Shown here: piece after piece, positions 3,140 through 46,190 of the stretch
Layout: each line of letters opens with the position of its first letter
Numbering within the stretch: position 1 is the first letter of the stretch
From: Halococcus hamelinensis 100A6
Lineage (GTDB): Archaea > Halobacteriota > Halobacteria > Halobacteriales > Halococcaceae
DNA: 64,000 nt
Direction of reading: 5' to 3'
Assembly: GCF_000336675.1 (NCBI RefSeq)
Contig: NZ_AOMB01000035.1
Location: 19,161 to 83,160 of the forward strand
Position numbers and translations under genes: made by a program
The notes under the pieces: model-generated
What the model saw: the letters and a program-made list of their open reading frames with translations, nothing else
What the model was told of the DNA's origin: nothing
The model's database searches: none

Positions 3140-3530
3140 CAACGCCGTCCGCTCTGTTCGTGACCTTCCGCGACCGCCCAAACCCCAGTACATAGGCTCT
3201 CTGAGTGCCTATCGTGCGGTATCGAGTGCGGCACGTCCGCACCCATACCGGGACGATCGGACGATCTTCGACAACCCACCGCACTCAGCGAACGACCGTC
3301 GCCGAAGGTGATAGGCGGTGCGATAGAAGTACCGCCGAGTCGAGTCGGGGATCGACGACCGCCCGGACGCCCCGCCGAAAGGCGATGCGTTCGCCGAACG
3401 AGAGGAGTACCGGGGGCTTGGCACTCCCAGTGGGCGCACGAACGTCCGTCCACGAACCTGAAACTCCCAACCCAGCGTTACGGTGCGGCCGTGGGAATCC
3501 TCACCCTGCAGCGCAGGGAGGATGTCAAGA
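3140..3530 (+). mobile_element. Decayed IS200/IS605-family remnant without intact gene
   Basis: This stretch has no credible intact gene but ends in a right-end hairpin that matches the one behind the tnpB fossil at 4.8 kb. Around 3200 one frame reads ECLSCGIECG, reminiscent of the second half of a TnpB zinc ribbon, and the last codons before the right end read like a TnpB tail (VHEPETP, GNPHP). The coding part is too eroded to assign with confidence. It could be a PATE-like non-autonomous derivative. Confidence 0.35.
3491..3530 (+). repeat. IS200/IS605-type right-end hairpin, copy 1
   Basis: An imperfect stem-loop (atcctcaccctgc / gcagggaggat, one bulged base) is followed by gatgtcaa. It aligns without gaps to 4801-4840, with 32 of 40 positions identical. 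It sits 55 nt before the fxsA start, so the old element end abuts the fxsA promoter. Confidence 0.7.
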
Positions 3531-3585
3531 CGAACGATTCGGCGTTAGGGGCAATCGTTTTCCACGCCTGGTATCTACATCGGGT

Positions 3586-4122
3586 ATGTTTGGCCGGTTG
3601 CTACTTGCTGCTCTCATACTCGCGTTGGCCGATGCGTTCGTTCTGCTCATCGTGGCGGGGCAGATCGGCGCACTCCTGACCATCGGTCTCGTCGTATTGA
3701 CCGCCCTCGTCGGGTCGTTGTTGGTGCGCAGCGAGGGCCGTGCAACACTCCATCGTCTTCAACGACGGCTCCAAAATTTCGAGGCACCGACCGACGAATT
3801 ACTGGACGGTGTGCTCATCGTCCTCGGCGGTGGCTTCCTCATCACGCCGGGTCTGTTGACCGACCTCACCGGATTCCTGTTCGTGATCCCCTTCACGCGT
3901 GCCCCCCTTCGCGTCGCACTCAAACGCTGGGTGATCACCCCGTCCGTCCGCAAGAAGCTCCAGAATGGCTCCCTCAACGTCCAGGTCGGCGGTACCCTCG
4001 GAAACACCCGGAGCAGTACCGGTTTCGGAGGCCAGGATCGAACCCAAGATACCACCACTGACGACAGCTACTACGACCTCGACGACAATATGTACGACGT
4101 CGAGGACGAGGAGAGCTCCTAA
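3586..4122 (+). CDS. fxsA: FxsA family membrane protein
   Basis: A 178-aa integral membrane protein of the FxsA family, named for E. coli FxsA, which when overproduced relieves phage T7 exclusion by F plasmid PifA; its cellular role is otherwise unclear. The hydrophobic N-terminus (LLLAALILALADAFVLLIVA) leads into two further helices, the conserved GGGFLITPGLLTDLTG loop (residues 79-94) and FTRAPLR, followed by a soluble acidic tail ending in DVEDEESS. The frame stays open far upstream, but family similarity begins only at this ATG. The gene lies between two pieces of IS200/IS605 debris: a right end 55 nt upstream and a tnpB fragment about 15 nt after its stop. Confidence 0.88.
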   Translation: MFGRLLLAALILALADAFVLLIVAGQIGALLTIGLVVLTALVGSLLVRSEGRATLHRLQRRLQNFEAPTDELLDGVLIVLGGGFLITPGLLTDLTGFLFVIPFTRAPLRVALKRWVITPSVRKKLQNGSLNVQVGGTLGNTRSSTGFGGQDRTQDTTTDDSYYDLDDNMYDVEDEESS

Positions 4123-4137
4123 CTCCGGCCTTAGTGA

Positions 4138-4786
4138 CGAAACGAGAGCGACCCGCGCTACTCGAAGCGGCTGGCTCAAAGAGTCCAAGCACTACTACAA
4201 GCGCGTCGAGGACGAGTGTGAAGGCGAGAACGGGCTTTCGCGCCGCGCTCGGAACGTGAAACGTACTCTCAAGGACCGACGCCGGCACTTCCACCACACG
4301 CTCTCGAAGCGTATCGTCGCCGAGTGCACCGGACGAAACGTTGGACGCCTCATGGTCGGCGACCTCGGTGGTATTCGCTCCGAAGAAGCCGGCTCTGGTC
4401 GGAATTGGGGCCGTCACGGGAACAAGATGCTCCACGGGTAGGGCTTCGGGATACTCACGAGGATGCTCGAGTACAAGGGCGAGGCCGCAGGTATCGAGGT
4501 GGTCATCGAATCCGAACGCGACACGTCGAAGACGTGTTCGGTCTGTAGCCACAAAAACGGTAGTCAGCGCGTTGAGCGCGGTCTGTACCACTGCCAGCAG
4601 TGTGGTCGGACGGCGAACGCCGACGCGAACGGCGCGGAGAATATCAGACAAACGCTACTCCCGAATCCAGACCCATTCGACAGATTGGATAGGGATAACG
4701 GCTGTTTGGCACAGCCAGCAGTGTGTTCGTTCGACGCTACGGATGGTCAATTCCATCCACAAGAGCGGGCGCATTGCGAACCCTAA
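4138..4786 (+). pseudogene. tnpB: tnpB (IS200/IS605 family, OrfB) C-terminal pseudogene
   Basis: This is the C-terminal half of a TnpB RNA-guided nuclease. It reads RYSKRLA from 4156 in one frame, then an extra C at 4177 shifts it into the frame KESKHYYKRV, which continues to the end. An amber TAG at 4439-4441 replaces the tryptophan of the family motif HGWxF (here HG*GF). After it the protein continues with LEYKGEAAGIEV, ESERDTSKTC, the zinc ribbon CSVC...CQQC and NADANGAENI. All three RuvC acidic residues are visible: D in VGDLGGIR, E in ESERDTSKTC and D in NADANG. The N-terminal half is missing; the fragment starts about 15 nt after the fxsA stop. Confidence 0.85.
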
Positions 4787-4800
4787 TATCCCACCGCCGG

Positions 4801-4840
4801 TAGGGAATCCTCGCCTTTCAGGGCGGGGAGGATGTCAAAA
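4801..4840 (+). repeat. IS200/IS605-type right-end hairpin, copy 2 (possible omega-RNA 3' end)
   Basis: The stem-loop aatcctcgccttt-ca-gggcggggaggat is followed by gtcaaaa, 15 nt after the tnpB pseudogene stop. In this family the region overlapping the tnpB 3' end and the right end encodes the guide (omega) RNA scaffold. Bases right after the hairpin would have been guide sequence in the living element. Confidence 0.75.
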
Positions 4841-14423: not shown

Positions 14424-15548
14424 CGAGCACTCCCCGCTGTGAGAAGGAGGACCCACTCCAAGAATCCGTATCGGGTCATCTGTGATCGCTACTGAAGCGG
14501 ATCCGCTGCGATGATGGTGTTGAGCTACCCCACTCTCCATCGGATTCGGCAGGGAAGAATGGGAAACACCAGCCAACCTGGTATCGACCACACGAAACAG
14601 TAGCAGGGCGCGTTCGTCTTCTCGACCGACGAAGGGTCGTTGGCTGGTCTCCAGTATCCAAACACAGACGACCGACCGTTCCAGAGACGGCAAAGCCGTC
14701 AGATCCACTTGGTTTGCGTTCGACGAGAGCGCTAACTCGCCTCGCGGTAGCGACAGTCGTGTTATCAATGGCCATCCCGTGTCCGATATAATCGAACAGA
14801 AATCGGGAGCTGGCGCTACGACGTTCTGCATATAGAAACCCGAACGGTCCAGCATCTTAGGGGTAACATACATATGCATATTATATCCGGCGAAATGGAC
14901 CGCTTATCTAAAGGAAAATTGTTGAAGGTGTACCACACGTGTTACCACCAACCGTACTGCATCCACCACGTAGAAATTCTTTCCGAAATATTCGAACACG
15001 CTTACCGAACGGAATCGGGAATCGTTCACTTCATGTCCGAGCGAGCGTCGACCCGGAGTCGAACACTGTACCACGTCGAACCCAACGAAGTCGTTCCATC
15101 AGGCAAACGAATAGAGAGATAGCTCGGTGTACGTGGATGAGGCTACAATCGGTATTTCACTCACAAAGTTTCGTTCGTTGATGTCAAAATAAAGAATGTC
15201 AGTTCGTCCCGAGCAACAACCGGCGACCTGGAAGCCGACTGTAACACGAGCGGGCTATCTGCGAAAGAGAACTCACTCGAATCGTCCGCCACAGAACGAC
15301 TGACTGTAACGGTATGTCGATACAACCAGCACTGTTTCTCAGCACTGAGCGTGTCTCGCCTCGCAGGGAAGCCTGGACGAAATGAGCTCTGCGTGTCCTT
15401 TCTTCATGGTCGTCGTAGAAGCTCCTCCGTTCGTCCTTGCTACGATCCCTCCAAAGTATCGTCAGATGGGTGTCCTCTTCCTCGATTTTTCAGACTGCTT
15501 GTCCGATTCTAGCAGCCGGCAGTGGTCTGGTGTCAACAATGCTAAGAT
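14424..15548. other. Gene-free intergenic region of about 1.1 kb
   Basis: No open frame here resembles a known protein or has a promoter-start arrangement. A perfect 10-bp palindrome atatgcatat lies at 14872-14881 in an AT-rich patch. Short frames on both strands look like chance readings. Confidence 0.4.
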
Positions 15549-15558
15549 ATATTTATAC
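15549..15558 (+). promoter_or_regulatory. TATA-like box upstream of the Nramp-like transporter
   Basis: atatttatac lies about 80 nt before the ATG, so this transcript would have a leader of roughly 50 nt, unlike most genes in the window. Confidence 0.5.
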
Positions 15559-15565
15559 ATGACCG

Positions 15566-15621
15566 CTGGTAGCTAGTAGCGTGATTGAGGATGTCACTCG
15601 ATCACACGCGCTAGCAGCCAG
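15566..15621 (+). promoter_or_regulatory. Long imperfect inverted repeat in the leader of the Nramp-like transporter
   Basis: The arm at 15566-15589 (ctggtagctag...gtgattgag) pairs with the arm at 15597-15621 (ctcgatcacac...ctagcagccag) around a 7-nt loop; the pairing is imperfect with a few mismatches and bulges. The inner part (gcgtg..attgag / ctcgatcacacgc) would be fully transcribed. It ends at the first ATG codon (15622) and just before the purine run ggaga that precedes the preferred ATG at 15634. It could be an operator dyad or an RNA control element. Confidence 0.6.
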
Positions 15622-15633
15622 ATGGAGACAACA

Positions 15634-16941
15634 ATGTCAACAGAAAAAATGGAACTCCCATCCGAGGACTGGATAGGTTTTTTCAAGAATCACTTTGGAC
15701 CGTCGATGATGTGGGCCCTCCTCGGGATCGGCTCAAGTCATATCGTTCTTGCACCGACGTTCGGGGCGTCCTTCGGGCTCTTCGCCATCTGGGCCATCTC
15801 CTTCATCTTTCTCGTGAAATACGGCGCTTGGGCACTGGGGATCAGATACAACTACACCGTCGGAAAGGACCTCATCGCGGGATACAAGGACCTACCGGGA
15901 CCGGGAAACTGGGCACTGTGGGCCTCCGCATTCGTGGTTCTCATCGCGGTCGTATTGAACACGGCCGCGGTGGGGATGGCCGGAGCCGCCGTCGTCGCGG
16001 CCCTCTCTTCGGTCGGTCAACTCGGCGCGTTCATCGTCATCGTCGTCGTCTCGACGCTTCTGGTCGCGGGAACGAACTACACCTTTCTGGAGCGGTTCCT
16101 GTTCCTTTTCATCGTGCTATTCGTCTTTCTCATGGTTCTCAGCTTGTTAGTAGGGCTACCTTCGATGGCCGTCGTCACGGAGACAACGTTCGCCGTTCCC
16201 GCCCTCCTCGAATCACCGTTCCTCCCGGTCTTCGCCGCCGCGGCCGGTCTCACCCCGACGCTCATCAACAGCAGTCTCTTCCTTAGCTCGTGGAGCCTGA
16301 CGAAGAATCAGGGTGCGCGTCACGATGACGTCGAGGACAGTCAAGCGAGCGAGTACGAGGACTATATTTCAGCGTGGCTAAAGACGGGGCTGAAGGACTT
16401 CCGAATCGGGTATCTCCTCAGCTACCTTCTGATGGTGATTCTCGCCACTCTGGCCGCGAGCGTTCTCTACCCGGGCTTGCCCGAAGGGGACATTGCAGCC
16501 GCTCTCGGGGAGATATTCGGCGAATCCTTCGGGCAGTGGGCGTTCTATGTCATGATGGTCGGCGCGTTCGCTGCGCTTTGGTCGACGGTCATCGCGTCGC
16601 TTGACGGAGGCGCTAGAGTGTTCGTGAATATCCTGTCCGAACTTGAGATAGACGTTGCACCCGACCGGACGAGACGGCTACTCGTCGTCCTCTTCGCTCT
16701 GCTAAGCGCGGTCCCTGTCGTCGTTCTCGGACAGACACCCACCGTGTTGATCGTCGCGTTCGGGACAGCCGGACTCCTCATAGAGGTCTTCATCTATCCG
16801 GCCAACCTGTATCTCGTCTACAATCACGTGCCGGAGAAGTTCCGTCCGAGCAGCGGATGGCTGGCGTATTACATCGTCGCGATCGTCTGTTTCGTCGGTC
16901 TGGCGGTCCTGGGCGGTCTCTCACAGGTGGGAATCCTCTGA
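15634..16941 (+). CDS. Nramp-related membrane transporter
   Basis: A 435-aa multi-spanning protein of the Nramp (SLC11) superfamily, with about 11 helices: FGPSMMWALLGIGSSHIVLA, FAIWAISFIFLVKYGAW, WASAFVVLIAVVLNTAAVG and so on. A soluble loop GARHDDVEDSQASEYEDY follows helix 6. The metal-binding DPGN of helix 1 is replaced by GSSH, and the MPH of helix 6 by LTP (GLTPTLINSS), so it probably does not move divalent metals like classical MntH. The ATG at 15634 is chosen because ggaga lies 8 nt before it; an in-frame ATG at 15622 is possible. Its neighbours suggest uptake linked to amine or organic-acid catabolism, which is inference. Confidence 0.8.
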   Translation: MSTEKMELPSEDWIGFFKNHFGPSMMWALLGIGSSHIVLAPTFGASFGLFAIWAISFIFLVKYGAWALGIRYNYTVGKDLIAGYKDLPGPGNWALWASAFVVLIAVVLNTAAVGMAGAAVVAALSSVGQLGAFIVIVVVSTLLVAGTNYTFLERFLFLFIVLFVFLMVLSLLVGLPSMAVVTETTFAVPALLESPFLPVFAAAAGLTPTLINSSLFLSSWSLTKNQGARHDDVEDSQASEYEDYISAWLKTGLKDFRIGYLLSYLLMVILATLAASVLYPGLPEGDIAAALGEIFGESFGQWAFYVMMVGAFAALWSTVIASLDGGARVFVNILSELEIDVAPDRTRRLLVVLFALLSAVPVVVLGQTPTVLIVAFGTAGLLIEVFIYPANLYLVYNHVPEKFRPSSGWLAYYIVAIVCFVGLAVLGGLSQVGIL

Positions 16942-17399: not shown

Positions 17400-18224
17400 T
17401 TAGCGGATGGAGGGAGTTACGTTGAGGGGCTCTGCGTGGGCTCCCATCGGAATATTGACCGCGTTCTCGAAGTCGTTCTTGTCGTCGCAGAGCATCTTTC
17501 CAGTCGTCTTCAGCGCCCGCAGGTCGATGAGGATCACTCCGATCACGGGGAGAACGATCTCACCCCAGACGAGCAAGTAGAGGGAGTCAGCGATCTCGTA
17601 GTAGGTACAGGGGGTGGCTTCCGCGATATCCTTTTCCTCACCTTCCAGACAGTGCCATACGAAGCACCCGTCGTTGAGGTAGATGTGTTCGTATATGCTG
17701 TTGTCGCTGTAGGTGTACTTTACTCGCTTTCCCGTCAGCTCGTTCGTTCTCCCGTGGAGCTCGGCCGAGTCGGTGAACGGCTCATCGATGGTCGCAGACC
17801 GGACCTCGTACTCACCCGCTGACAACGACTCATCGGCCATCGCGTTTTCGAGCAGCAACGTCGGCATTTCTTCCTTCGAGGAAGGGATGGTGGCGGTAAC
17901 CGCCGTTGCGACTCCCCGTTCGAAATCAAGCGACAGCGAGACAGACGTTCTCTCCTCGTCCGTTTTCATGAAGTCTACGAAGTATATCTCCTCCCTCGGT
18001 AGCGTCGCATTGTAACTCCCTTCTGCGCTTTCTTCCCCTCCGGTACCACCCATGACAGTCCATTTCAGCGTCTCACCGTCGATGAACTCGTATCTCACCG
18101 ACGAGTCGTCTTCGAAGTTGAGGGTGAACTCCCTTCCCGAGAGCGAATCAGTGGCCTCCATCCGATTCGCACCGTAGCCTTCGGCTATATCGCCCATCGG
18201 CACCCAGTTTGATGAACCAGTCAT
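17400..18224 (-). CDS. moaF: MoaF family protein (monoamine-regulon associated)
   Basis: A 274-aa soluble protein with the two MoaF domains. The N-terminal one contains FTLNFEDDSSVRYEF, LKWTV and EIYFVDFMKTDEE. The C-terminal one contains LTGKRVKYTYSDNSIYEHIY, CFVWHCLEGEE, TYYEIADSLYLLVWGEIVLP and LRALKTTGKMLC. MoaF was named from the Klebsiella monoamine regulon and is mostly known from proteobacteria; its biochemical role is not settled, and despite the name no molybdenum cofactor genes are nearby. The amine oxidase gene 1.4 kb away on the same strand fits the monoamine link. The ATG at 18224 is preferred to 18257 because the latter lies inside the TATA-like box. Confidence 0.8.
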   Translation of the reverse strand: MTGSSNWVPMGDIAEGYGANRMEATDSLSGREFTLNFEDDSSVRYEFIDGETLKWTVMGGTGGEESAEGSYNATLPREEIYFVDFMKTDEERTSVSLSLDFERGVATAVTATIPSSKEEMPTLLLENAMADESLSAGEYEVRSATIDEPFTDSAELHGRTNELTGKRVKYTYSDNSIYEHIYLNDGCFVWHCLEGEEKDIAEATPCTYYEIADSLYLLVWGEIVLPVIGVILIDLRALKTTGKMLCDDKNDFENAVNIPMGAHAEPLNVTPSIR

Positions 18225-18254
18225 GCTATCGTACACTCGGGTAGAGAGAACGAT

Positions 18255-18265
18255 CATATATAAAA
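18255..18265 (-). promoter_or_regulatory. TATA-like box for moaF
   Basis: On the minus strand ttttatatatg is centred 36 nt before the ATG at 18224, predicting a leader of roughly 9 nt. Confidence 0.5.
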
Positions 18266-18795
18266 CTATCCTTCATACGAACGTCGTTGAGTCCAGAGAT
18301 CGTTCGTTTCCCGACTGATCTGACCAGAGTTTGCACGACGTAGCCGGAATAGCCGCCCGAGTCGTGCTGCCCGACGGTCGTCGGGTAGCCCACACTGTCG
18401 ACGAGAAGTTCCGTTTCGATGCGGTCACAACGTTTCTCGGGTTCCGAAAGGGATGCGTCGGCAGAGCGCGACTCACCAGCACGAGCCCCGAACACACGTA
18501 AACCGTCTCGACCACGAGTGGTTCGGTGAATGCCACCGGTCGTAATCCCTTCGGCTACAATTGCCCTAGTGTTTAATCTCCCTGGATACGTCTGTCGTCC
18601 ACGAACGACTGGACCGGATCCTGTCGATTCGTACGGAATCGCTACCGGGTTTTGAACCTCCCTTCGAATCGTTGCCAAGGACGAATGTCCGAATCGGTAC
18701 TCGGATTCTGAGAGAGACGGTAGCGAACCCGCGCTCACCTCATCCTACATACCACTACAGGAAACCTTAATGTTCTCCGTCCAGATTCGTCCAGC
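18266..18795. other. Intergenic region between divergent moaF and iclR
   Basis: About 530 bp separate the moaF promoter from the iclR start. A plus-strand stretch near 18330-18490 is open and protein-like (RVVLPDGRRVAHTVDEKF), but it has no start and no recognised family. The region probably holds control sites for the divergent genes; none can be named. Confidence 0.3.
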
Positions 18796-19608
18796 ATGAA
18801 CGAAGAAGGCGACAACATCATCAAAACCACGGCAAGATCCCTCGACTTATTGAATGCAATAAAAGACAGTGGAGGGGCTACTGTAGCGGAGCTAGAAGCG
18901 CAAAGCGACCTGAATAGAAGCACGATATACAAACACCTCAATACGATGGTTGAGATGGGATATCTCACTACCAGAGGTGATGAATACTTCCCAGGCTACG
19001 AACTCTTTCACCTGGGTGAGTTCGTGAAGAAGCGCGTGGTCAACTATCGAAGGATCAAGCGTAAAACGGACGAACTGAAGGAGACGCTACCGGAGCAGGT
19101 CGAATACGGACTGGAATCGAACGGACTTATCGTCGGATATCTACCGTCCACGGAGTACGACTCGGGTCTGTTTCGGGACCTCACGGAGGATGGCAAGAAA
19201 AACGTCGTCGACTATGCGGGGAGCAAGGCCTTCATGCATTCCAATGCGCTGGGCAAAGCGCTATTAGCACAAAAGAGCGATGGGGAGATCGAGGAGATAA
19301 TTGCGAGATATGGTCTTCCAGAACAGGCCAAGAAGACCGTCACATCACCCGACGAACTGTTTAGGGACATCGATGTGATCAGAGAGCAGGGGTACGCGAC
19401 CACCGACGAAGAATGGGACAACGGGCTGAGAGAAGTCGGGATAGTCGTCGAACCCACAGAAGGGGTCGTGCTCGGTGGATTCAACGTGTTCGGACCGGTG
19501 TACAAGATCGACGACCGTCGGTTGAACGAGGAGCTGCCAAGAGTACTGAGAGAGTACGTGGCCGAGTTGGAGGAGGATATCGTCGAAGATTGGGAACAAA
19601 GCGAATGA
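18796..19608 (+). CDS. IclR family transcriptional regulator
   Basis: A 270-aa regulator. The N-terminal winged helix (residues about 8-70) has TARSLDLLNAI, TVAELEAQSDLNRSTIYKHL as the recognition region and MVEMGYL. The C-terminal IclR effector domain has FMHSNALGKALLA, GLPEQAKKTVTSPDELFRDI, IREQGYATTDEEWDNGLREVG and a ligand-pocket segment GFNVFGP. IclR proteins bind catabolic intermediates and control adjacent genes. It sits between moaF (divergent) and the amine oxidase (convergent), so control of the monoamine genes is likely. Codon use is more AT-rich at the 5' end than in its neighbours. Confidence 0.92.
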   Translation: MNEEGDNIIKTTARSLDLLNAIKDSGGATVAELEAQSDLNRSTIYKHLNTMVEMGYLTTRGDEYFPGYELFHLGEFVKKRVVNYRRIKRKTDELKETLPEQVEYGLESNGLIVGYLPSTEYDSGLFRDLTEDGKKNVVDYAGSKAFMHSNALGKALLAQKSDGEIEEIIARYGLPEQAKKTVTSPDELFRDIDVIREQGYATTDEEWDNGLREVGIVVEPTEGVVLGGFNVFGPVYKIDDRRLNEELPRVLREYVAELEEDIVEDWEQSE

Positions 19609-19647
19609 GCTGCGGATTCGACTAGTGTCTTCCCGAGTTACTCCTAT

Positions 19648-21651
19648 CTACCCGCTCTCATGGTCCGGTACGTCCTGATTCCGAATGGCGTGTTGCGGTG
19701 GAACGTCGATCGCGGGGCTTTCTTCGAAGAAGTTCGTCGGCTGGAGTTTGAAACTATAGACCTGAGCCGGAAGGATCGGCCAATCTTCCGGCCGTGTGAC
19801 GTGGTTCATCCCGAGCGTATACCAGAGCACGATGTCTTCCTCTTCGAGGTTTCGGTCCGCTTCGGTCCATTCGGGAAGCCCGGCCCCACCAGGGTGTTGA
19901 TTCGGGTAATCGCCGGCCGGGAAACGCTCGCTCTCCCGGAACGGCGTCGCCCAGAGATGATACTTGATGAACCCGGACCGTTTCATAACACTCGAATCGG
20001 ACTTCATGGGTGCCTTGACGTTTCCGCTGGGCATCAAGCGATAGCTAGTCGGTCTGTTGAGCCGATTGGTTTCTTGTGCATTGACGATCTGCCAGTATCG
20101 GCCGTTCAAGGGATCGATCAGGTCTTTCGCTTCCCCCTCGGATGTGATCTTTTCACGATCGGCGTAGTACGCGTTTCCACCCGGGTTGAGTGTCTCCTCG
20201 TCTACCTCCCCCATCGGATCAAGTCCTTCGGGACCGCTCGGCACTGGCTGATTTTCGACCCGGTAGAGCGAGTTCGGCCCATCGTCGATGTTCATGTCGA
20301 GTCGGAAGTTGAAGAAGTGCTGGTGGATGGGGCCAGCGAGCTGTGGGGCTACGAGTTCTTTGTATCCGGACGGGTCCTCGTCGGCACCCACTGCGCTCAC
20401 GCTGTTGATCCCGGTCAAACGAACTTCCACTTCGATCGAGGCGTCCTGATAGAAATACCAGTTGAAGATATAATCGTAGTTCCCGACGGCTGCAACGAAC
20501 GAGACGACGAGCCGTCGCCGTCGTCTGACCTCGCTGGAGTCGGTACGCCAGTCACTCCGTTCCCAAAGCGTACCGTTGTCCTCTTCGTGGAGACAAATAG
20601 CGTTCTCCAAGATGTTTACCTCTCCGTTGACGGTGTTCATAGCGGCATCCCAATAATGCATTTCACCCAGGCAATCACATCCGTTCGAGAGGGATTTGGC
20701 GAGACGACCAATGTTGTACTCCCCGATATCCATCACTCCTTTGAAACGGTCGTTGACCTCCGGGTCGCCATAGGGAACGGACATCTCCGCACAGGAGGCC
20801 CTGTCGATGATCGACCGGACTTCACCCTCGTCTTCGTATCCGATGTTGTGGAGGACGAGTCCCTCACGTTGAGTCCAGCCGACCCGCATGTGCCAACCCT
20901 GCCACTCTAGCTTGCGACCGTTGACTTCCCAGCTAGGGCCGCCGGGCTGGTCGACGTTGTATGCAGTTACGTCGTCCCGGAACTCGACGTCGTCTTCCCG
21001 ATAGGCCATTTCCTCGGGCGGGAACGGGCTATTGTCATCCGGTGGTCCATAGTCCACAACCTTCACGACGTCCATTCGATCCAGATCGACGAACGTGTGG
21101 AGTCCAGTAACCGGCCGTGAGTAGCCCTCGTCGCCGTCCTCCCCGCTCGACCGCAAGTACGTCAACCCATGTGCCAATCGCTTCGACCGGTCTACGTCTT
21201 CGGGTATGAACTCGTAGCCAGCCGCCCAGGGGTCGACCATACCGAGTCCGGGGTCTTCGACGCCCCGCTCTCTCAGGGCATCTCGCCATTCCTCATTGGA
21301 TTTCACCGTCTCCTCACAGGCCACGAACTCCTCGATGGTGAGGGAGGGTTGAACCCCCTCCATGTGGTTCCAAGAATCGACCGAGTCCTCCGTGAGGGAG
21401 ACTATCGCTTCGACCGTTTTGCGATCCGAGCTGTCACGGATGACGATGCGTGCTTTCCGCTCCGGTTCTTGGTTCTCGTTCTCGTACGCAGCAAGGGCCT
21501 CCTTACTGGGTTCCGAGAGTTCTATCTTGATATAGCGGCTTTCCTCGCCGATGGCTTTCTCGCCCGTCAGTATCGAAACTGCTCCATCGATCTCCTCTCC
21601 CGTGAGCGGGTCTAGCGGGTGGTGTTCTGATGACCGCTGGCCTTGCACCAT
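19648..21651 (-). CDS. Copper amine oxidase (primary-amine oxidase)
   Basis: A 667-aa topaquinone enzyme that oxidises primary amines to aldehydes with release of ammonia and hydrogen peroxide. The TPQ precursor is Tyr392 in VGNYDY; the catalytic base Asp308 is in MDIGEYNIG; the copper ligands are His443 and His445 (PIHQHFFNF) and His617 in LGMNHVTRPEDWPILP. No signal peptide is visible, so it acts in the cytoplasm unless modified. The start at 21651 lies 28 nt after a TATA-like box; the open frame 20 codons longer overlaps that box. A catalase or peroxidase is not nearby. The aldehyde product could go to the aldehyde dehydrogenase at 24.6 kb. Confidence 0.95.
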   Translation of the reverse strand: MVQGQRSSEHHPLDPLTGEEIDGAVSILTGEKAIGEESRYIKIELSEPSKEALAAYENENQEPERKARIVIRDSSDRKTVEAIVSLTEDSVDSWNHMEGVQPSLTIEEFVACEETVKSNEEWRDALRERGVEDPGLGMVDPWAAGYEFIPEDVDRSKRLAHGLTYLRSSGEDGDEGYSRPVTGLHTFVDLDRMDVVKVVDYGPPDDNSPFPPEEMAYREDDVEFRDDVTAYNVDQPGGPSWEVNGRKLEWQGWHMRVGWTQREGLVLHNIGYEDEGEVRSIIDRASCAEMSVPYGDPEVNDRFKGVMDIGEYNIGRLAKSLSNGCDCLGEMHYWDAAMNTVNGEVNILENAICLHEEDNGTLWERSDWRTDSSEVRRRRRLVVSFVAAVGNYDYIFNWYFYQDASIEVEVRLTGINSVSAVGADEDPSGYKELVAPQLAGPIHQHFFNFRLDMNIDDGPNSLYRVENQPVPSGPEGLDPMGEVDEETLNPGGNAYYADREKITSEGEAKDLIDPLNGRYWQIVNAQETNRLNRPTSYRLMPSGNVKAPMKSDSSVMKRSGFIKYHLWATPFRESERFPAGDYPNQHPGGAGLPEWTEADRNLEEEDIVLWYTLGMNHVTRPEDWPILPAQVYSFKLQPTNFFEESPAIDVPPQHAIRNQDVPDHESG

Positions 21652-21673
21652 ATGTTTTTGACCGTCAGCGTAT

Positions 21674-21683
21674 GGTATATATG
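21674..21683 (-). promoter_or_regulatory. TATA-like box for the amine oxidase gene
   Basis: On the minus strand catatatacc is centred about 28 nt before the ATG at 21651, consistent with a leaderless mRNA. Confidence 0.55.
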
Positions 21684-21779
21684 TTTCCCTCAACCCAGCA
21701 TCGACCGCCACCCACGGTAGTTCTAGGACGACGAATGTTCCATTCTGGAATGCCTGAACTGCTCGGGGAACGCTGGTTG

Positions 21780-22160
21780 TCGAGGCGGAGTATCCCCCGA
21801 AAAACGTGCTTCAGCATTTCACAGCCAGGTTCGTGATGTGTTCGTCTTTGTAACTGAAACGCGCTCGGGTAGTGCGTGAACTCGTCCTTCGGAACGCCTC
21901 GATGGGCAAGAGACACGAGTCAGTGGTGTTACCGTGACTGTCGTAGGTATTCGCATGAACTTCATCGTCGATGTACTCGTTGTCCAGGTGAGTGACTGCT
22001 CGCAGCGAAACTGCTCATCGTCCAGCGGATCGTATGCTCGGAACCGATTCGTGTAGACCGCAGTGATTCCTTTTAGCGGGCCAAGAAACGAGTCCGAGTC
22101 GCTGATCCGTCCACTGGTTTGACCGGGTCACGTACCACTTTCCGGCCCCGCGGTCGATGA
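21780..22160 (-). pseudogene. IS1595-type haloarchaeal transposase, decayed
   Basis: Minus-strand fragments in different frames resemble the C-terminal half of a haloarchaeal IS1595-family DDE transposase, in the right order: VYTNRFRAYDPLDDEQF (about 22058-22005), LDNEYIDDEVHANTYDSHGN (about 21988-21927), then after a frameshift SLAHRGVPKDEFTHYPSAFQ (from about 21915) and LKHVFRGIL. Several expected residues are lost. The element separates the amine oxidase from the amine/amino-acid permease. No terminal repeats were recognised. Confidence 0.6.
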
Positions 22161-22640
22161 GGACGAAAGCAGATCCGCGGTATTCCCCACCGAATTCGGT
22201 ACAGCCGACGGAAACATCCTACCGGGAGATACTTCCGAGTCGCCCCTGCCCGCTACCCTTTCGCGGTCGCACCACGAACGATCTCTCCACAAAATCGATC
22301 AGTGACTCCGAGTCCCACTGTGCCGAGGAACCTCAGTCCGTTTGGAGCCGTCGAGCAGTGACGGGCTATCTCGAAATAATAGACAGGAGAGAGCGATTGT
22401 AACAGGAATATGACCGTCATTCTAAGAGCGTAATCTATCATATTGAGATCATCGGGACCCGTTTGCGTGGTATACTGTGTCGATTCGATCGACACGAGAA
22501 CGGTGCCGATAAGTCAGGACACGTCGAGAGTACGACCGAATGGCGAAGAAGTGTCAGTTGCGGTACTGACGGTGGTCGAGTCGATGCCGCGCCGCCCGAG
22601 TGCCGTAGGGCGGTCGCTACCGATAGGGACCAACGACCAG
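22161..22640. other. Intergenic region without recognised gene
   Basis: About 480 bp upstream of the permease promoter. A minus-strand frame (22253-22495) could be the eroded N-terminal part of the transposase remnant, but no motif supports this. The box ggatttaag at 22642-22650 probably serves the permease gene. Confidence 0.3.
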
Positions 22641-22684
22641 TGGATTTAAGTGTGTGGAATATGCTGGTAACGTATAGCACGACA

Positions 22685-24022
22685 ATGTCCGACAAGAAAT
22701 CGGAGCTTCGAAGTGGACAGTTAGGGTTCTGGACGGCGGTAGCCGTGGGGTTCGGGATGGTTACGTCATCGACTACCCTATACGTGGCGGGAAATACGGT
22801 CGGCCAGATCGGGTCCGGACTGATAATAAGTATGCTGATAGCATTCGTATTCATGATACTGGCTGCTCTGGGCCTCTCAGAGCTCTCGACGATGTACCCC
22901 GTCGCAGGTAGCTTTACCACATACGCAAAGAACGCCTTCGGGTCCAGCGCTGGTGTGGCGATAGGATTGATATATTGGCTGGTGTTCGTCGCTCTCGCAT
23001 CCGAGGCCAACATCGTTGGACACATTCTGAATTACGTGTTCCCGGGATTCCTCCCGTGGCAAGTGTGGGGGACGCTGTTGGTCGTTCTATTCGTAGGAGT
23101 CAATATTCTCGGGATCAACTGGGTAGGGAAAACAGCGGCTGTATTGTTGGGATTACTCGCAGGGGTGATCGTGCTACTCTCGCTTCTGCAGATAGGAGGG
23201 TTCGGGGCCGCACAGTTCGATCCGTCCGAGCTAACCTGGACCCAAGCAGGGTGGAGCCCTATCCTGTCCTTCGTGCCCTTCGCCGTCTGGCTGTTCGTGG
23301 GATGGGAAGTTCTCGGTCCGCTCGCAGAGGAGGTGGAAGACGCCGAGAACACCCTGCCCAAAGCCATGATCACGGTCGTCGTCTTGGTTTTCCTAGTTCG
23401 GGTTCCGTTCATTATCGCAATGGACGGTTCTGTGGGTGCTGACGCGCTAGCTCAGTCGCCGTTCCCCCAAGTGGTCGCGTTCGAAGCCTTCTTCGGTGCA
23501 ACGGGGATGTGGATAATGGCGATCATCAGCTTTCTGGCAACCGGCGCGACTTTCAACGCGGTTCTAGCGGGCACGTCACGGCAACTCTGGAATCTGGGAC
23601 GAGAGGGCTACTTACCAGGGGTGCTGGGACATCTAAATCCACGATTCAAAACTCCGGACGTCGCGTTAGCTCTAACTGGAGCGATCGTTTTGGTTCTGCT
23701 GTGGGCCGTGACGCTCCCGACCGTGCTCATTAATGCAAGCGCCAATCTATTCATCATCGTCTATATTACGGTGTCAGCATGTGTGATCGTGCTCAGATAC
23801 AAGAAACCGGACCAGGAGCGGCCCTTCTATGCAGGTGGTCCCGAAGCGCTCCCGGCCGTCTCCGTCGTGGGAATCATCGGCCTCACTCTTGCGTTGCTCT
23901 ATTCCGGCAACAGGGTACTCGTCGTCACTCTCGCGGTTGTAGTCGTTGTACTCGTCATTTCGTACGTCACGACGAGGTTCTCGACACGAGACCGTCAGAA
24001 CACGGGCGTCGAAGGAGAATAA
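22685..24022 (+). CDS. APC superfamily amino acid/amine permease
   Basis: A 445-aa, 12-helix secondary transporter of the amino acid-polyamine-organocation superfamily. The helix 1 signature is LGFWTAVAVGFGMVTSSTTLYVAG (unwound glycine region), helix 2-3 is SELSTMYPVAGSFTTYAKNA, and helix 6 is VPFAVWLFVGWEVLGPLAEEV with the conserved acidic end. GTSRQLWNLGREGYLPG and the YKKPDQERPFYAGG loop are also typical. The ATG at 22685 is preferred because it follows the TATA-like box (22642-22650) by about 38 nt; an ATG at 22661 is in frame. Its position between the amine oxidase and the aldehyde dehydrogenase suggests import of the amine or parent amino acid. Confidence 0.88.
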   Translation: MSDKKSELRSGQLGFWTAVAVGFGMVTSSTTLYVAGNTVGQIGSGLIISMLIAFVFMILAALGLSELSTMYPVAGSFTTYAKNAFGSSAGVAIGLIYWLVFVALASEANIVGHILNYVFPGFLPWQVWGTLLVVLFVGVNILGINWVGKTAAVLLGLLAGVIVLLSLLQIGGFGAAQFDPSELTWTQAGWSPILSFVPFAVWLFVGWEVLGPLAEEVEDAENTLPKAMITVVVLVFLVRVPFIIAMDGSVGADALAQSPFPQVVAFEAFFGATGMWIMAIISFLATGATFNAVLAGTSRQLWNLGREGYLPGVLGHLNPRFKTPDVALALTGAIVLVLLWAVTLPTVLINASANLFIIVYITVSACVIVLRYKKPDQERPFYAGGPEALPAVSVVGIIGLTLALLYSGNRVLVVTLAVVVVVLVISYVTTRFSTRDRQNTGVEGE

Positions 24023-24635
24023 GAGCTCCCCGGCCCTCTTCGTTCGGTCCGCTACCGATGATGTTCAACAGATCCGTCTCCGAGGAGTTGCGACGGAGTA
24101 CATTGAGCGCCCGAACGAACGGAATTCGTCGAAGCGGGTTGGCCGTACACAGAGAACTCCGGTAACTGCTCGAGGCACGCTCGTCGCTGCACTCCCAACG
24201 TGTTGCACTCGACGAACGGTAGAGGGAGCCTGCCGGTGACGAGAAGGTCCCGGCTTCACGGTCGGTCCAGCGCGGAGCAGTGGTTAACCGCCGATGCTCA
24301 TTGCCGCGTCAGTCTCCGTGCTCGTCGGGCCCTCGACAGCCTGCCGTCCGTTGGACCTCTGAACAACCCAGTTCGAGAGCGCCGGCGAGGGCATCCTCGG
24401 AGATGGAGTTCTCGTTCAGGGAGAGAAGGCATCCACTTTCCTTCGTGGGTGAAGTCGGTAGTTGGCACGACAACAGCCTGCGGATCTCCATCGACGGTCG
24501 TTCGGTTCATTGACGACGGAGGTCATCCGTTTTCACGAACCCCAGCGAAGTATCAAATTCTTTCGGACTATGTCTCGCTATCTCCAACAGACCAACCACA
24601 GCCCGAATACGCGTCCGTTTCTCTATGCGTTACTA
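24023..24635. other. Intergenic region with a possible IS6-type transposase crumb
   Basis: No intact gene in about 610 bp. At about 24256-24291 the plus strand reads RSSAEQWLTADAH, close to the C-terminal block of IS6-family transposases; nothing else of the element is recognisable. The permease and the aldehyde dehydrogenase converge on this region. Confidence 0.3.
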
Positions 24636-26168
24636 CTATCCGAGGTTGATATTTATCGCCTTCGTCTGTGTGTATTCGTCTATCGCCTCCGCCGCGTTCT
24701 CCCGTCCCTGGCCGGATTGTTTGTATCCACCGAACGGCTGTCCAGCCGAGACGTCATTGTAGTGATTCACCCAGACGACACCCGCTTCGAGGCGACGTGC
24801 TGTTCGGAGTGCCTTGGTGATGTCATTGGTCACGATCCCGGATGCAAGCCCGTAGTCGACGTCGTTTGCCAACTGGATGGCCGTCTCCTCGTCGCTCCAG
24901 GAGAACGTTTCGACGACCGGGCCAAATATCTCCTCTTGGACCGCGGAATGGCTGTGTTCCAACCCATCGATGATCGTGGGCTGATAGAACGAGCCCTGTT
25001 TCAGGGAGTCGTCCTCCGGCTGCTGACCGCCGATGACGATGTTCGCATCGCTATCAGCAGCGGCATCCACGTATTCTGCTGTGCGGTTCACCTGTTCTTG
25101 GGAGACCTTCGGGCCCATATCCGTTTCCTCCAGTAGCGGATCGCCGATTTCGAGGCTGCTAGCAGCGTTAGCGAACGACTCGATGAATTCATCGCTGATC
25201 GCCTCGTGGACCAGAATTCGAGAGCCTGCCGCACAGCATTCACCCTTGTTGAAGAAGATGGCCATCATCGCGATCTCCACTGCTTCTTCGACTTCCGCAT
25301 CCGGATAGATGATAACGGGGCTCTTCCCACCCAGCTCCAGTGTTACCTTCTTCACATCATCGACCGCATTTCTCGCGATCTCTTTGCCCACCTCCGTCGA
25401 CCCAGTAAACGAAAGCTTGTGGACATCCGGGTGTGCCGAGAGCGGTGCGCCGGCCTCTTCGCCATACCCAGTGACAACGTTTATTACACCGTCGGGAACG
25501 ACCGCATCACCGAGCTCGAGCAGCTTGAGGATGGAGAGCGGCGTTTCTTCGGAAGGCTTCAAGACGATCGTGTTTCCAGCTGCCAGTGCCGGACCGATCT
25601 TCCAGATAGCTATCAAGAGCGGAAAGTTCCACGGAACGATGCCCCCAGTTACGCCGTACGGTTCACGTACTGTGAAGACTTGTTTTTCCCGGTCGAACAG
25701 GTCATCGGTGGGGATCGTCTCACCGGTAACCATCCGTGCCGCCGCCGCATTGTAGGTGAGGTGGTCGACGACCAGCTCCATATCGCCCATGGCTTCAGTG
25801 ATGGTTTTGCCAGTGTCCAGCACCTCGAGCGTCGCGAGGGTTTCCTTGTTGTCCTGAACTATCCGTGATAGGGCGGAAAGCACTTGCTGTCGGTCACCCG
25901 AAGAGTAGTTCGACCACTCCGTCTCGAACGCGGTCTGTGCTGCTTCGACCGCGCGGTCGATGTCTGCTTCGTTTCCGGCGGGTACTTCGGCCAAGACCGC
26001 TCCCGAGGTGGGGTCGTAGGTTTCGATCGTCTCTTCGGAATCGCTCGCAACCCATTTCCCGCCGATGTAGTGGGTCAAGTGGGCTGGGAGGCTATCGTTT
26101 GCAGCGTCCCGATGTCGCTGCTCGATCGGTTCACTACCGTCCGGTTTGGAATCTTTTTCCGCACTCAT
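24636..26168 (-). CDS. NAD(P)-dependent aldehyde dehydrogenase (betaine-aldehyde/aromatic aldehyde type)
   Basis: A 510-aa enzyme oxidising an aldehyde to the acid. Catalytic residues are in place: Asn181 in VPWNFPL, general base Glu278 in LELGGKSP and nucleophile Cys312 in NKGECCAAGSR. The coenzyme loop is FTGSTEVGK. The N-terminus carries about 30 extra charged residues before the family core (HYIGGKWV). In its neighbourhood the likely substrate is the aldehyde released by the copper amine oxidase. The Rieske protein gene lies 149 bp upstream on the same strand and may be co-transcribed. Confidence 0.93.
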   Translation of the reverse strand: MSAEKDSKPDGSEPIEQRHRDAANDSLPAHLTHYIGGKWVASDSEETIETYDPTSGAVLAEVPAGNEADIDRAVEAAQTAFETEWSNYSSGDRQQVLSALSRIVQDNKETLATLEVLDTGKTITEAMGDMELVVDHLTYNAAAARMVTGETIPTDDLFDREKQVFTVREPYGVTGGIVPWNFPLLIAIWKIGPALAAGNTIVLKPSEETPLSILKLLELGDAVVPDGVINVVTGYGEEAGAPLSAHPDVHKLSFTGSTEVGKEIARNAVDDVKKVTLELGGKSPVIIYPDAEVEEAVEIAMMAIFFNKGECCAAGSRILVHEAISDEFIESFANAASSLEIGDPLLEETDMGPKVSQEQVNRTAEYVDAAADSDANIVIGGQQPEDDSLKQGSFYQPTIIDGLEHSHSAVQEEIFGPVVETFSWSDEETAIQLANDVDYGLASGIVTNDITKALRTARRLEAGVVWVNHYNDVSAGQPFGGYKQSGQGRENAAEAIDEYTQTKAININLG

Positions 26169-26317
26169 GGTCCGCTTCAGGCGTGCGGCCCTGAGAGACT
26201 TAGTTCTTTCTAGTAGAAGGTGACAGTTACGGACGTGTACGTCGTTAGCAACGACGGTCAGAGAGGGGTATAGTAACTAGAGCGGAGGGCGAACAAGACA
26301 GCCGAGAGGACCTTCCG

Positions 26318-26701
26318 CTACGTCTTCCTCTCCCCGACACACACGATACCGTCCTCCACGACGACTTCGTAGGTGGGAAGGACGATATCGCTGTTTGCGA
26401 GGTGCTCTCCGCTCTCGAGTTCGTACGACCATCCGTGCCAAGGACACGAGATGATACATTCGTCGTCGTCGAACTCCCGGTTCACTCGTTTGCCGGGTTC
26501 TTCGAACTCAGCGACCAGTTTCTTGCCAGTGTCACCAGTACAGACAGGCCCACCGTCGTGTAAGCAGTAGTTCTGGAGTGCGTAGTAGTCGCCTTCTACT
26601 TGGAGAACGCCGACTTCGGTACCATCGATCTCGACGAACTCCCGGTCTCCGTCCTGAAACTCCTCCTCCGGTTTGACGTGGACGAGCGATGTACTGCTCA
26701 A
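26318..26701 (-). CDS. Rieske [2Fe-2S] ferredoxin
   Basis: A 127-aa soluble Rieske protein. Cluster ligands are Cys46 and His48 (NYCLHDGGP) and Cys86 and His89 (SCPWHGW). The spacing between the two boxes (37 residues) is longer than usual because of an acidic insertion (VNREFDDDEC). Such proteins carry electrons to ring-hydroxylating oxygenases, or form part of nitrite or other reductases. No oxygenase alpha subunit is encoded nearby. Its ATG overlaps the amidohydrolase stop by 4 bp (ATGA), so the two are translationally coupled. Confidence 0.92.
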   Translation of the reverse strand: MSSTSLVHVKPEEEFQDGDREFVEIDGTEVGVLQVEGDYYALQNYCLHDGGPVCTGDTGKKLVAEFEEPGKRVNREFDDDECIISCPWHGWSYELESGEHLANSDIVLPTYEVVVEDGIVCVGERKT

Positions 26702-27816
26702 AGGTCGAACACCTCTGCTGCGTTTTCGTGCAGAACCGCTCGCTTCTCCTCCTCCGAGAGCGACGGAAGGTCAAGAACGGTGGTCGGACGGTCATAGTCC
26801 CAGTGTGGGTAATCGGATGCGAACATGAGGCTATCCGTCCCGACCATGTCTATACTCTTGGCCAAGAACTCCGGATCGGCCGAGATCTCCAGCGGTTGCG
26901 TTCCGTAGTAGAAGTCCGTGATGTATTCTCCGGGCTTCTTTTCCAACATCGGAGCCTCTTCGGGTCGCTTGAGGTATTCCTCGTCGAGTCGAGCGATAAG
27001 TCCTGGAAGATATGTGACACCCGACTCCATGAACGCGATATCGAGGTCCGGAAACTTCTCCGGTACGCCACGGCAGACGAGGCTTACTATCTGTGACATA
27101 TTCGATTCGAGGAAACCGAGCGTATGCGTCTCGATCATTTCCTCGTATCCACCCCGTACGTACTCGTCGAGCCCTGCTCCTCCCGTATGGAAAACTGCGG
27201 GGAGGTCCATCTCTTCGCATCGCTTGTACAACGGGTCGTACTTTCTATTCCCGAGTGGAAGAGCCGCCCCGGCCGTGACGAAGCAGGCACCCTTGTAAGC
27301 TTCCTCCCCCTCGACTCGGTCGAGAATTTCGAGTGAGGCATCGATATCGGAGTACGGAATAGGAGCTAATCCGAAGATGCCATCGTCAGGATCCAGGACC
27401 TCTTCTTGCATGTACTCGACGTAGGCCTTCGCGAACGCGGTCTGTCGCTCGTCGTCGGCCGTCGATCCGGCACCCGCGAGAACCAGATGCGAGATCAGGA
27501 GCGTCTTGTTGACACCGATCGACGCCATGCCTTCCCGAATCCGTTCGGGCGTCTCCGGTTCATCGGGGTAAGAAGAGTACTCACGGTCTATTTTTCCGTA
27601 CGCCTGACGGTCACCCGTCGAGAACGGGAAGAACGAGCTGAGGTTCTGCTTCGCCCCTTTTTCGTCGAAGCCGCTCTTCTCGAACCTCGTTTTCCACGGC
27701 TCTTCCATGTACTCAGCGACGTCGGTGAACGACTCCATGTAGTGGCAATCACAGTCGATCACTTCGTATGACTCGAGCTCCTCTTCTCGCCGAGACTGGC
27801 TATCCGTCTGTGCCAT
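26698..27816 (-). CDS. Amidohydrolase family 2 protein (ACMSD/LigW-like)
   Basis: A 372-aa TIM-barrel metal enzyme of the amidohydrolase-2 family, which includes decarboxylases such as ACMSD, gamma-resorcylate decarboxylase and 5-carboxyvanillate decarboxylase. The N-terminal metal motif appears as DCDCHYME (normally DxHxH; here D-C-H), a metal His is in PAVFHTGG, and the C-terminal acid is in MFASDYPHWD. A TATA-like box (cagttatta on the minus strand, about 27839-27847) suits a leaderless start at 27816. It is coupled to the Rieske gene. It could decarboxylate or hydrolyse an aromatic intermediate; the reaction is not known. Confidence 0.85.
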   Translation of the reverse strand: MAQTDSQSRREEELESYEVIDCDCHYMESFTDVAEYMEEPWKTRFEKSGFDEKGAKQNLSSFFPFSTGDRQAYGKIDREYSSYPDEPETPERIREGMASIGVNKTLLISHLVLAGAGSTADDERQTAFAKAYVEYMQEEVLDPDDGIFGLAPIPYSDIDASLEILDRVEGEEAYKGACFVTAGAALPLGNRKYDPLYKRCEEMDLPAVFHTGGAGLDEYVRGGYEEMIETHTLGFLESNMSQIVSLVCRGVPEKFPDLDIAFMESGVTYLPGLIARLDEEYLKRPEEAPMLEKKPGEYITDFYYGTQPLEISADPEFLAKSIDMVGTDSLMFASDYPHWDYDRPTTVLDLPSLSEEEKRAVLHENAAEVFDL

Positions 27817-45075: not shown

Positions 45076-46190
45076 GATATTGTTACACTGTTCTGTCTCT
45101 ATAAGGTTATTCATTCTATTGTAACATCGCTGCCCGAAACCCATGGTTTTACTCGCCATCACGACGGCTGCTGGTCACACTCAAGCACCTATCGATACGT
45201 GTCGTTGTCTACCACCAGCCCGACACGACCTCCGCCCGCATCCCCATTCAGTGGCGTGAATTCACACCCGAGGTCGTCTACGAGGATAACACCGAGTCGG
45301 GGATGCTTCTTTCCATACGAGTGGTTACGCCGGGGAAGACGACACTCATCGCTCGCTGGCATCACCAATACAAACTGCTTTTGGATTCAACGAACAGTCT
45401 CAAAAATTGTATCTTGAGATCTCAAAGATATTCGCACAGTATCCCAGATAGACTTTACTATTAAAATATTCCATGTTGCCGTCTTGTGGGATAGAACATG
45501 GAGAGTTAAATTTCAGTACCTCGTTCGTAGAAGAGATAAGTTATTGCGTGATATGATAGGGAGACTGTATCAATCACGAGATCGGTCATACTTTGATTTC
45601 AGAAAATCATCGCCCGCACGATTCCTCGGAAGCGGCTTGAGCGGTCTCCAATACTTCCTGATAAATTGGGCCCGGTGGAGTTGCGCGGGAAGAAAATCGG
45701 TTGCGTTACGGTACCTCCGACGAGTTTCTTCACGGATAAGTGACTCGCGTAGGCTCTGGAGAACTCCTCGATGAACTCACTGAGGGGCTAATCGAGTTAG
45801 CATGCTCTGTTACAGGTCGTCCTCTTGTTACAGTACCCATCTCGATCTTTTTGGTGGCTTCATCCTTTTGAATGGTTTCCCAAGATGAACCGCTGTGTCG
45901 CTCGCTTTCCTCCGACCCTCGGAACAACTGGTGGAGTTGTGATGGGATAGTTTCCAAATGAGCTGTCCCGTCATGAACAGTATCTACGTAAGGACTTCTT
46001 ACCGAAAGAGGTAGTATAGGGCTACTGATAGACAGATGCTTTCACAGTTTTAGTTCAGATAATGGGCCTCTCGTCGGGGCCAACGACTCCGCCGATGCTG
46101 CGGCGTCGGCCGGCCACGGCGCGGATATCCTCGACGAGTTTTGACTCTGCTTCGGACGCTCATCGCCGTTTCTGAACGAAACAATGTACG
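45076..46190. other. 1.1-kb gene-poor region, AT-rich centre
   Basis: The part from about 45390 to 45650 is clearly lower in GC than its surroundings (aaattttgag-like and ttattaaaat-like runs). Frames on both strands are open in places, but none shows a recognised family or a promoter-start pattern. It separates the aromatic module from the sugar module and may be a junction. Confidence 0.4.

Follow-up and report, generated by a model that had tools for sequence, protein, structure and literature searches.

A long imperfect inverted repeat lies between a TATA-like box and the start codon of an Nramp-related transporter gene in Halococcus hamelinensis 100A6. We tentatively favour a reading of this repeat as a DNA operator of the transporter promoter that overlaps the transcription start site and is recognised by a putative regulator. 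Direct reading of the window, by which we mean the whole 64,000 nt stretch of DNA analysed, found the repeat between the TATA box and the transporter start, where the first-pass annotation had placed it (Table 1). Its arms measure 24 and 25 nt, and when the left arm is aligned with the reverse complement of the right, 18 of the 24 aligned letters are identical, with one gap. The outer part of the arms carries CTAGC(A/T)(A/G)CCAG in inverted orientation.

Table 1. Positions in the window of the repeat, its promoter and the genes considered
Feature	Position	Strand	Basis or remark
Third outer half-site copy, CTAGCAGCCGG	15509-15519	+	One difference; upstream of TATA box
A/T run ATATATTTATA with likely TATA box TTTATA (15552-15557)	15547-15557	+	Longest A/T run between 15123 and 15634
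Left arm, CTGGTAGCTAGTAGCGTGATTGAG	15566-15589	+	Direct read
Left arm, outer half-site (inverted), CTAGCTACCAG	15566-15576	+	
Predicted transcription start (range)	15579-15585	+	Inferred from TATA box and own-genome TATA-to-ATG distance
Left arm, inner arm, GTGATTGAG	15581-15589	+	
Loop, GATGTCA (7 nt)	15590-15596	+	Direct read
Right arm, CTCGATCACACGCGCTAGCAGCCAG	15597-15621	+	Direct read
Right arm, inner arm, CTCGATCAC	15597-15605	+	
Right arm, outer half-site, CTAGCAGCCAG	15611-15621	+	
GGAGA run	15624-15628	+	5 nt before ATG 15634; direct read
Nramp-related transporter	15634-16941 (possible start also 15622)	+	PF01566, 44.4 bits (cut-off 29.8); NF037982, 51.7 bits (cut-off 50)
IclR-family regulator	18796-19608	+	PF01614, PF09339; weakly supported candidate regulator, the nearest found

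Runs of six or more A/T letters occur between 15123 and 15634 only at 15186, 15485 and 15547-15557, and the first two are weaker promoter candidates than the third. The distance from TATA box to transcription start was calibrated on 58 genes of the same genome that have an unambiguous ATG and a free upstream region. Among these genes, A+T content is highest at positions -29 to -25 relative to the ATG, and the few TATA-like hexamers lie mostly at -36 to -29. The peak fits the first-pass observation that the other genes here look leaderless, and messages of Haloferax volcanii are reported to be mostly leaderless (72%; PMC4983044, in part). Because most H. volcanii messages are of this kind, the TATA-to-ATG distance of the genome can calibrate its TATA-to-start distance, and by this measure transcription of the transporter gene would begin inside the repeat. 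The outer left arm would therefore be promoter DNA that is not transcribed. The predicted transcript carries a 9-bp hairpin at its 5′ end followed by an open leader, an arrangement that slightly higher or lower starts within the predicted range leave unchanged; the fold of this transcript is not exceptional (z -1.87). A GTG-started reading frame of 31 codons (15581-15676) also has its first codon at the predicted start and extends, in another frame, over the beginning of the transporter gene; the message would be leaderless for this frame if transcription began exactly at 15581.

The third copy of the outer half-site is in direct orientation with the right arm and 57 bp from the left box. The pattern CTAGCWRCCRG occurs at three places in the 3.42 Mb genome (46 contigs), namely the two outer arms and this upstream copy, all within 113 bp of the promoter. 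This pattern was defined after the third half-site had been seen, and the counts for the reversed pattern used as a control (33 and 29 places) are not comparable since CTAG is scarce. When one mismatch is allowed, a pattern taken from the two arms alone matches three more places in the window beside the upstream copy, so that about 0.006 matches are expected within 60 bp either side. As part of a regulatory site, the upstream copy is thus far a suggestive candidate. Because the repeat encloses the predicted start and is preceded upstream by a third copy of the half-site, we favour the earlier proposal that the repeat is a binding site for a dimeric regulator; support was found for neither the regulator itself, nor a regulon, nor conservation of the site.

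In the proposed mechanism, the palindrome would be occupied by a repressor acting as a dimer or tetramer. The palindrome reaches from a point 8 bp downstream of the TATA box, over the predicted start, as far as the start codon. Once bound, the repressor would block recruitment of RNA polymerase to TBP/TFB on the TATA box, and the extra upstream half-site could stabilise its binding. Further points for this reading are the rank and the uniqueness of the repeat, given below, and the precedent of known archaeal repressors that bind at such places. As regulation, an operator over the start site would be an ordinary kind of gene switch.

The 111 bp that hold the repeat occur once in the genome, with no second full-site copy that would show a regulon, and on the same ground a REP-like or mobile repeat was rejected. 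A transposon end was also rejected, only ten letters being in common. The sequence GAGGATGTCA is present three times in 416 kb of the strain's own sequence, once in the repeat loop at 15587 and twice in what we read from the sequence as a decayed tnpB / IS200-IS605-type element at 3205-4840; the surroundings differ, and the match is taken as chance. At about 3500-3528 and 4800-4838 this element has two hairpin ends, GGGAATCCTC...GGGAGGATGTCAA, that resemble each other. Segmental duplication of the leader, with CTAGCAGC...CAACAATG upstream and downstream, was likewise set aside, the flank alignment giving a non-significant P of 0.07 to 0.13.

How unusual the repeat appears depends on the measure that is used. 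Folded as RNA, the segment 15550-15640 reaches -36.6 kcal/mol, compared with -20.5 (s.d. 3.2) for shuffled sequences (z -5.00; 0 of 200 shuffles as good). The repeat ranks first by z-score among 1390 sliding 91-nt windows over the 64 kb (z -6.4 with 60 shuffles), only two of which reach z -5 or below, and it is first of 80 leader windows, taken two per gene for 40 predicted genes. Ranked by absolute energy, it is surpassed by 97 local structures on the two strands. When only Watson-Crick pairs are scored, the palindrome score of the repeat is 10, which is equalled or exceeded at about 20 listed places in the window; four Markov-random windows each contain 18-36 places that do the same. Taken by themselves as extending the core, the outer arms do not reach significance (P about 0.16). 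Corrected for composition, the repeat is outstanding as an RNA structure; judged as a strict palindrome, it is unremarkable. The same intergenic region contains a second well-folding stretch at 15365-15455 (z -4.2 in the 91-nt scan, -2.6 over 121 nt), and a further intergenic inverted repeat with GTGAT...ATCAC ends (GTGATATGATAGGGAGACTGTATCAATCAC) is located at 45548-45577, about 390 bp upstream of the start of an arylmalonate-decarboxylase-like gene.

The unexceptional Watson-Crick palindrome and the P value of the outer arms count against an operator, as do the lack of a second full-site copy, the half-site pattern's having been drawn up after the fact and the absence of the repeat from 51 homologue leaders described below. 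The palindrome score and this absence also bear on the possibility, unlikely in our estimate and still the strongest competitor, that the repeat has no present function, having arisen by chance or being in decay within an island promoter that is young and changes fast. Chance alone is expected to yield equally good Watson-Crick palindromes in a window this large. The composition of the window suggests that it is probably an island or a secondary replicon, with 59.7% G+C compared with 65.8-69.3% in sampled stretches of contigs C41 and C6, and 45 CTAG sites (0.70 per kb) compared with 0.05-0.30 per kb in those stretches; in both respects the window is like the first 20 kb of contigs C3 and C7. 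A repeat that is merely accidental is at odds, however, with its first rank among the 1390 windows and the 80 leader windows, its place exactly between TATA box and start codon, and the third half-site copy.

The Nramp metal-site motifs, which we take to be DPGN and MPH, were not seen in the transporter protein, which has GIGSSHIV and LTPTLINSS at what we read as the corresponding places. The 49 aligned homologues carry IGgSHIV and FAPTGfST-like sequences there. The substrate may be something other than a metal. Metal transport is the annotated role of this Nramp-related family, although these motifs are not seen. If the repeat is an operator, it would offer a defined site for fishing out the regulator, and through it a clue to the substrate of this family.

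Homologues, counting the genome itself each time, are found in 4 of 10 genomes of the genus, 5 of 18 of the family, 50 of 392 of the order and, at a stricter threshold, 47 of 391 of the class. All others are 41-48% identical to the window protein, which forms a long branch in the homologue tree, and the searches of genus, family, order and class returned no closer relative. A peptide-pattern scan of 84,980 species genomes found no homologue, and among named plasmid records the three top homologues come from Halobacteria. A phmmer match to a Cry protein chimera (67 residues, E 0.0003) was taken as chance. A pattern scan of genome contigs gave at least 117 stretches, with no haloarchaeon among the matches listed; the pattern was too loose and the scan was not used as evidence.

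The search of the order gave 50 places beside the gene itself, of which 49 were examined, one partial sequence with an internal stop (G334) having been dropped. Neither the core nor the half-site is intact in any of these 49 leaders. The best core match has 4 mismatches; the best half-site match has 1 mismatch in one leader and at least 2 in the others. Two additional homologues checked for motifs only (L208 and L211) also have leaders without core and half-site. Conservation of the arms in relatives that keep the gene, which the first-pass annotation had named as a touchstone, is thus absent from all 51 homologue leaders, every one of them from a distant relative, and identity of about 40-49% is a distance at which a specific operator need not survive. 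The same absence is what a repeat of no present function would lead one to expect.

Homologue leaders have features of their own. Many leaders of family f7 show TATAAGT and, some 10-20 nt later, a AATTCTTCGACA-like stretch; in the TATA scan, 17 of the 49 leaders lacked a TATA box of the pattern sought and one leader (L030) was misplaced. Two related homologues (L016 and L021) have a short palindrome, TACCGCAT-AGAACCC-ATGCGGTA, about 20-45 nt behind TATAAGT and near the expected start. The control region of the transporter gene thus differs between groups. The leader L012 of genome G106 contains a similar repeat at 1403-1447 (z -4.4), which starts 20 nt behind a TATA-like TTTACG. We dropped it as support, since it is not seen in the nearest tree relatives (L035 and L045) and the genus of G106 has no other genome; an unrelated strong leader repeat that is not seen in these relatives speaks for absence of function.

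Another reading, which we consider doubtful, is that the repeat acts as RNA. It would form either a hairpin at the 5′ end of the mRNA (GUGAUUGAG/CUCGAUCAC, from about 15581) or, if transcription started further upstream, the full 24-pair hairpin, and would protect the message or tune its translation. The first rank by RNA z-score agrees with this. On the + strand the repeat makes 24 pairs between 15563 and 15625, of which four are G-U; these are all of its non-Watson-Crick pairs and are therefore a hint of RNA that we count against the operator. Consistent with this, the + strand folds better than the - strand (-33.7 versus -25.0 kcal/mol). Set against these points are the location of the outer left arm above the predicted start, the ordinary z-score of the predicted transcript and the weakness of the A/T runs further upstream as promoters. 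In addition, an Rfam search of the repeat gave no match above threshold (best sR15, 16.6 bits, gathering score 40, E 3.4), and structured leaders are called untypical of haloarchaea in the part of PMC4983044 used here.

A particular form of RNA control, in which the structure hides the GGAGA run, had been offered as an option by the first-pass annotation and was rejected. The predicted transcript is without the outer left arm, and its remaining hairpin does not pair with GGAGA, which is instead partly paired with coding sequence; even the full hairpin reaches the run solely via its two outermost pairs. Moreover, H. volcanii is reported not to use Shine-Dalgarno motifs in 5′ UTRs (PMC3986360, in part). 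The description of the repeat as lying directly before the coding start holds for ATG 15622; only with the next in-frame ATG, 15634, does the GGAGA run make sense. Among homologues, a loose test found a run resembling GGTGA, GGAG or GAGGT a short way upstream of a possible start codon in 36 of 49 (L005-L054). In many leaders of this set a TATAAGT box precedes the conserved coding part by some 100-190 nt, and long leaders look normal for this transporter gene family.

A scheme joining DNA and RNA control in one sequence seems improbable to us. Here a haloarchaeal regulator of a kind not yet described would hold three half-sites (at -73 to -63, -16 to -6 and +30 to +40, counted from the predicted start), with control over a member of an Nramp branch without metal-site motifs, while the inner repeat would also serve as a hairpin at the 5′ end of the message.

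Clustering of genes neighbouring the homologues gave no recurrent regulator among recognisable families. The IclR gene of the window belongs to an amine-oxidation cluster (17400-27816) with genes for MoaF, IclR, a copper amine oxidase, an APC-like permease, an aldehyde dehydrogenase and an amidohydrolase. This cluster is common to one genome of another family, G169, with 57-84% identity for the named proteins. G169 has the closest IclR relative and is the only other genome with MoaF (2 of 392 in the order, own included). A common operator of the amine cluster was rejected, no palindrome being present in more than two of 13 promoter stretches of the two clusters. That the repeat is an operator of the IclR protein in the three-box manner of PcaU is the least likely reading of all: the gene lies 1.9 kb downstream, its product weakly matches the PcaR/PcaU model TIGR02431, and the PcaU, PobR and HmgR sites carry an external direct half-site repeat (PMC8222616, in part), but the match scores 90.3 bits against a cut-off of 284.75, and the group consensus GTNCG-N5-6-CGNAC given in that part of the source could not be made out in the repeat. 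In addition, about 57 bp separate the third box from the closer of the two outer arms, the palindrome comparison over the 13 promoter stretches likewise counts against this reading, and an Nramp gene is missing from the 38 kb of the G169 cluster that were read.

Several known systems invite comparison with the operator that we propose. The repeat resembles structured 5′ leaders and riboswitches in placing a stable hairpin before a transporter gene, and differs from them in belonging to no Rfam family above threshold and in having half of its hairpin outside the predicted transcript. Like the IclR-family three-box operators of PcaU, PobR and HmgR, it combines two inverted boxes with one direct box repeat and has an IclR gene nearby; unlike them, it has another box sequence and much wider spacing, and the IclR protein is far below the PcaR/PcaU cut-off. 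The operator motif of TrmBL1/Tgr (TGM) is TATCAC-N5-GTGATA (PMC4158304, in part), which does not occur in 15471-15640. In the present case the half-site order is reversed (GTGAT-N15-ATCAC) in a far longer repeat, and the protein that would bind it is putative. The sites of the archaeal repressors TrmBL1, Tgr, MDR1 and Phr lie downstream of the TATA box or over the start, and the bound proteins prevent polymerase from being recruited (PMC4158304 and PMC10817205, in part). Like their operators, the palindrome described here lies behind a TATA box and before a transport gene, its dyad symmetry falling between TATA-like box and start codon; at the predicted position, it would cover the transcription start.
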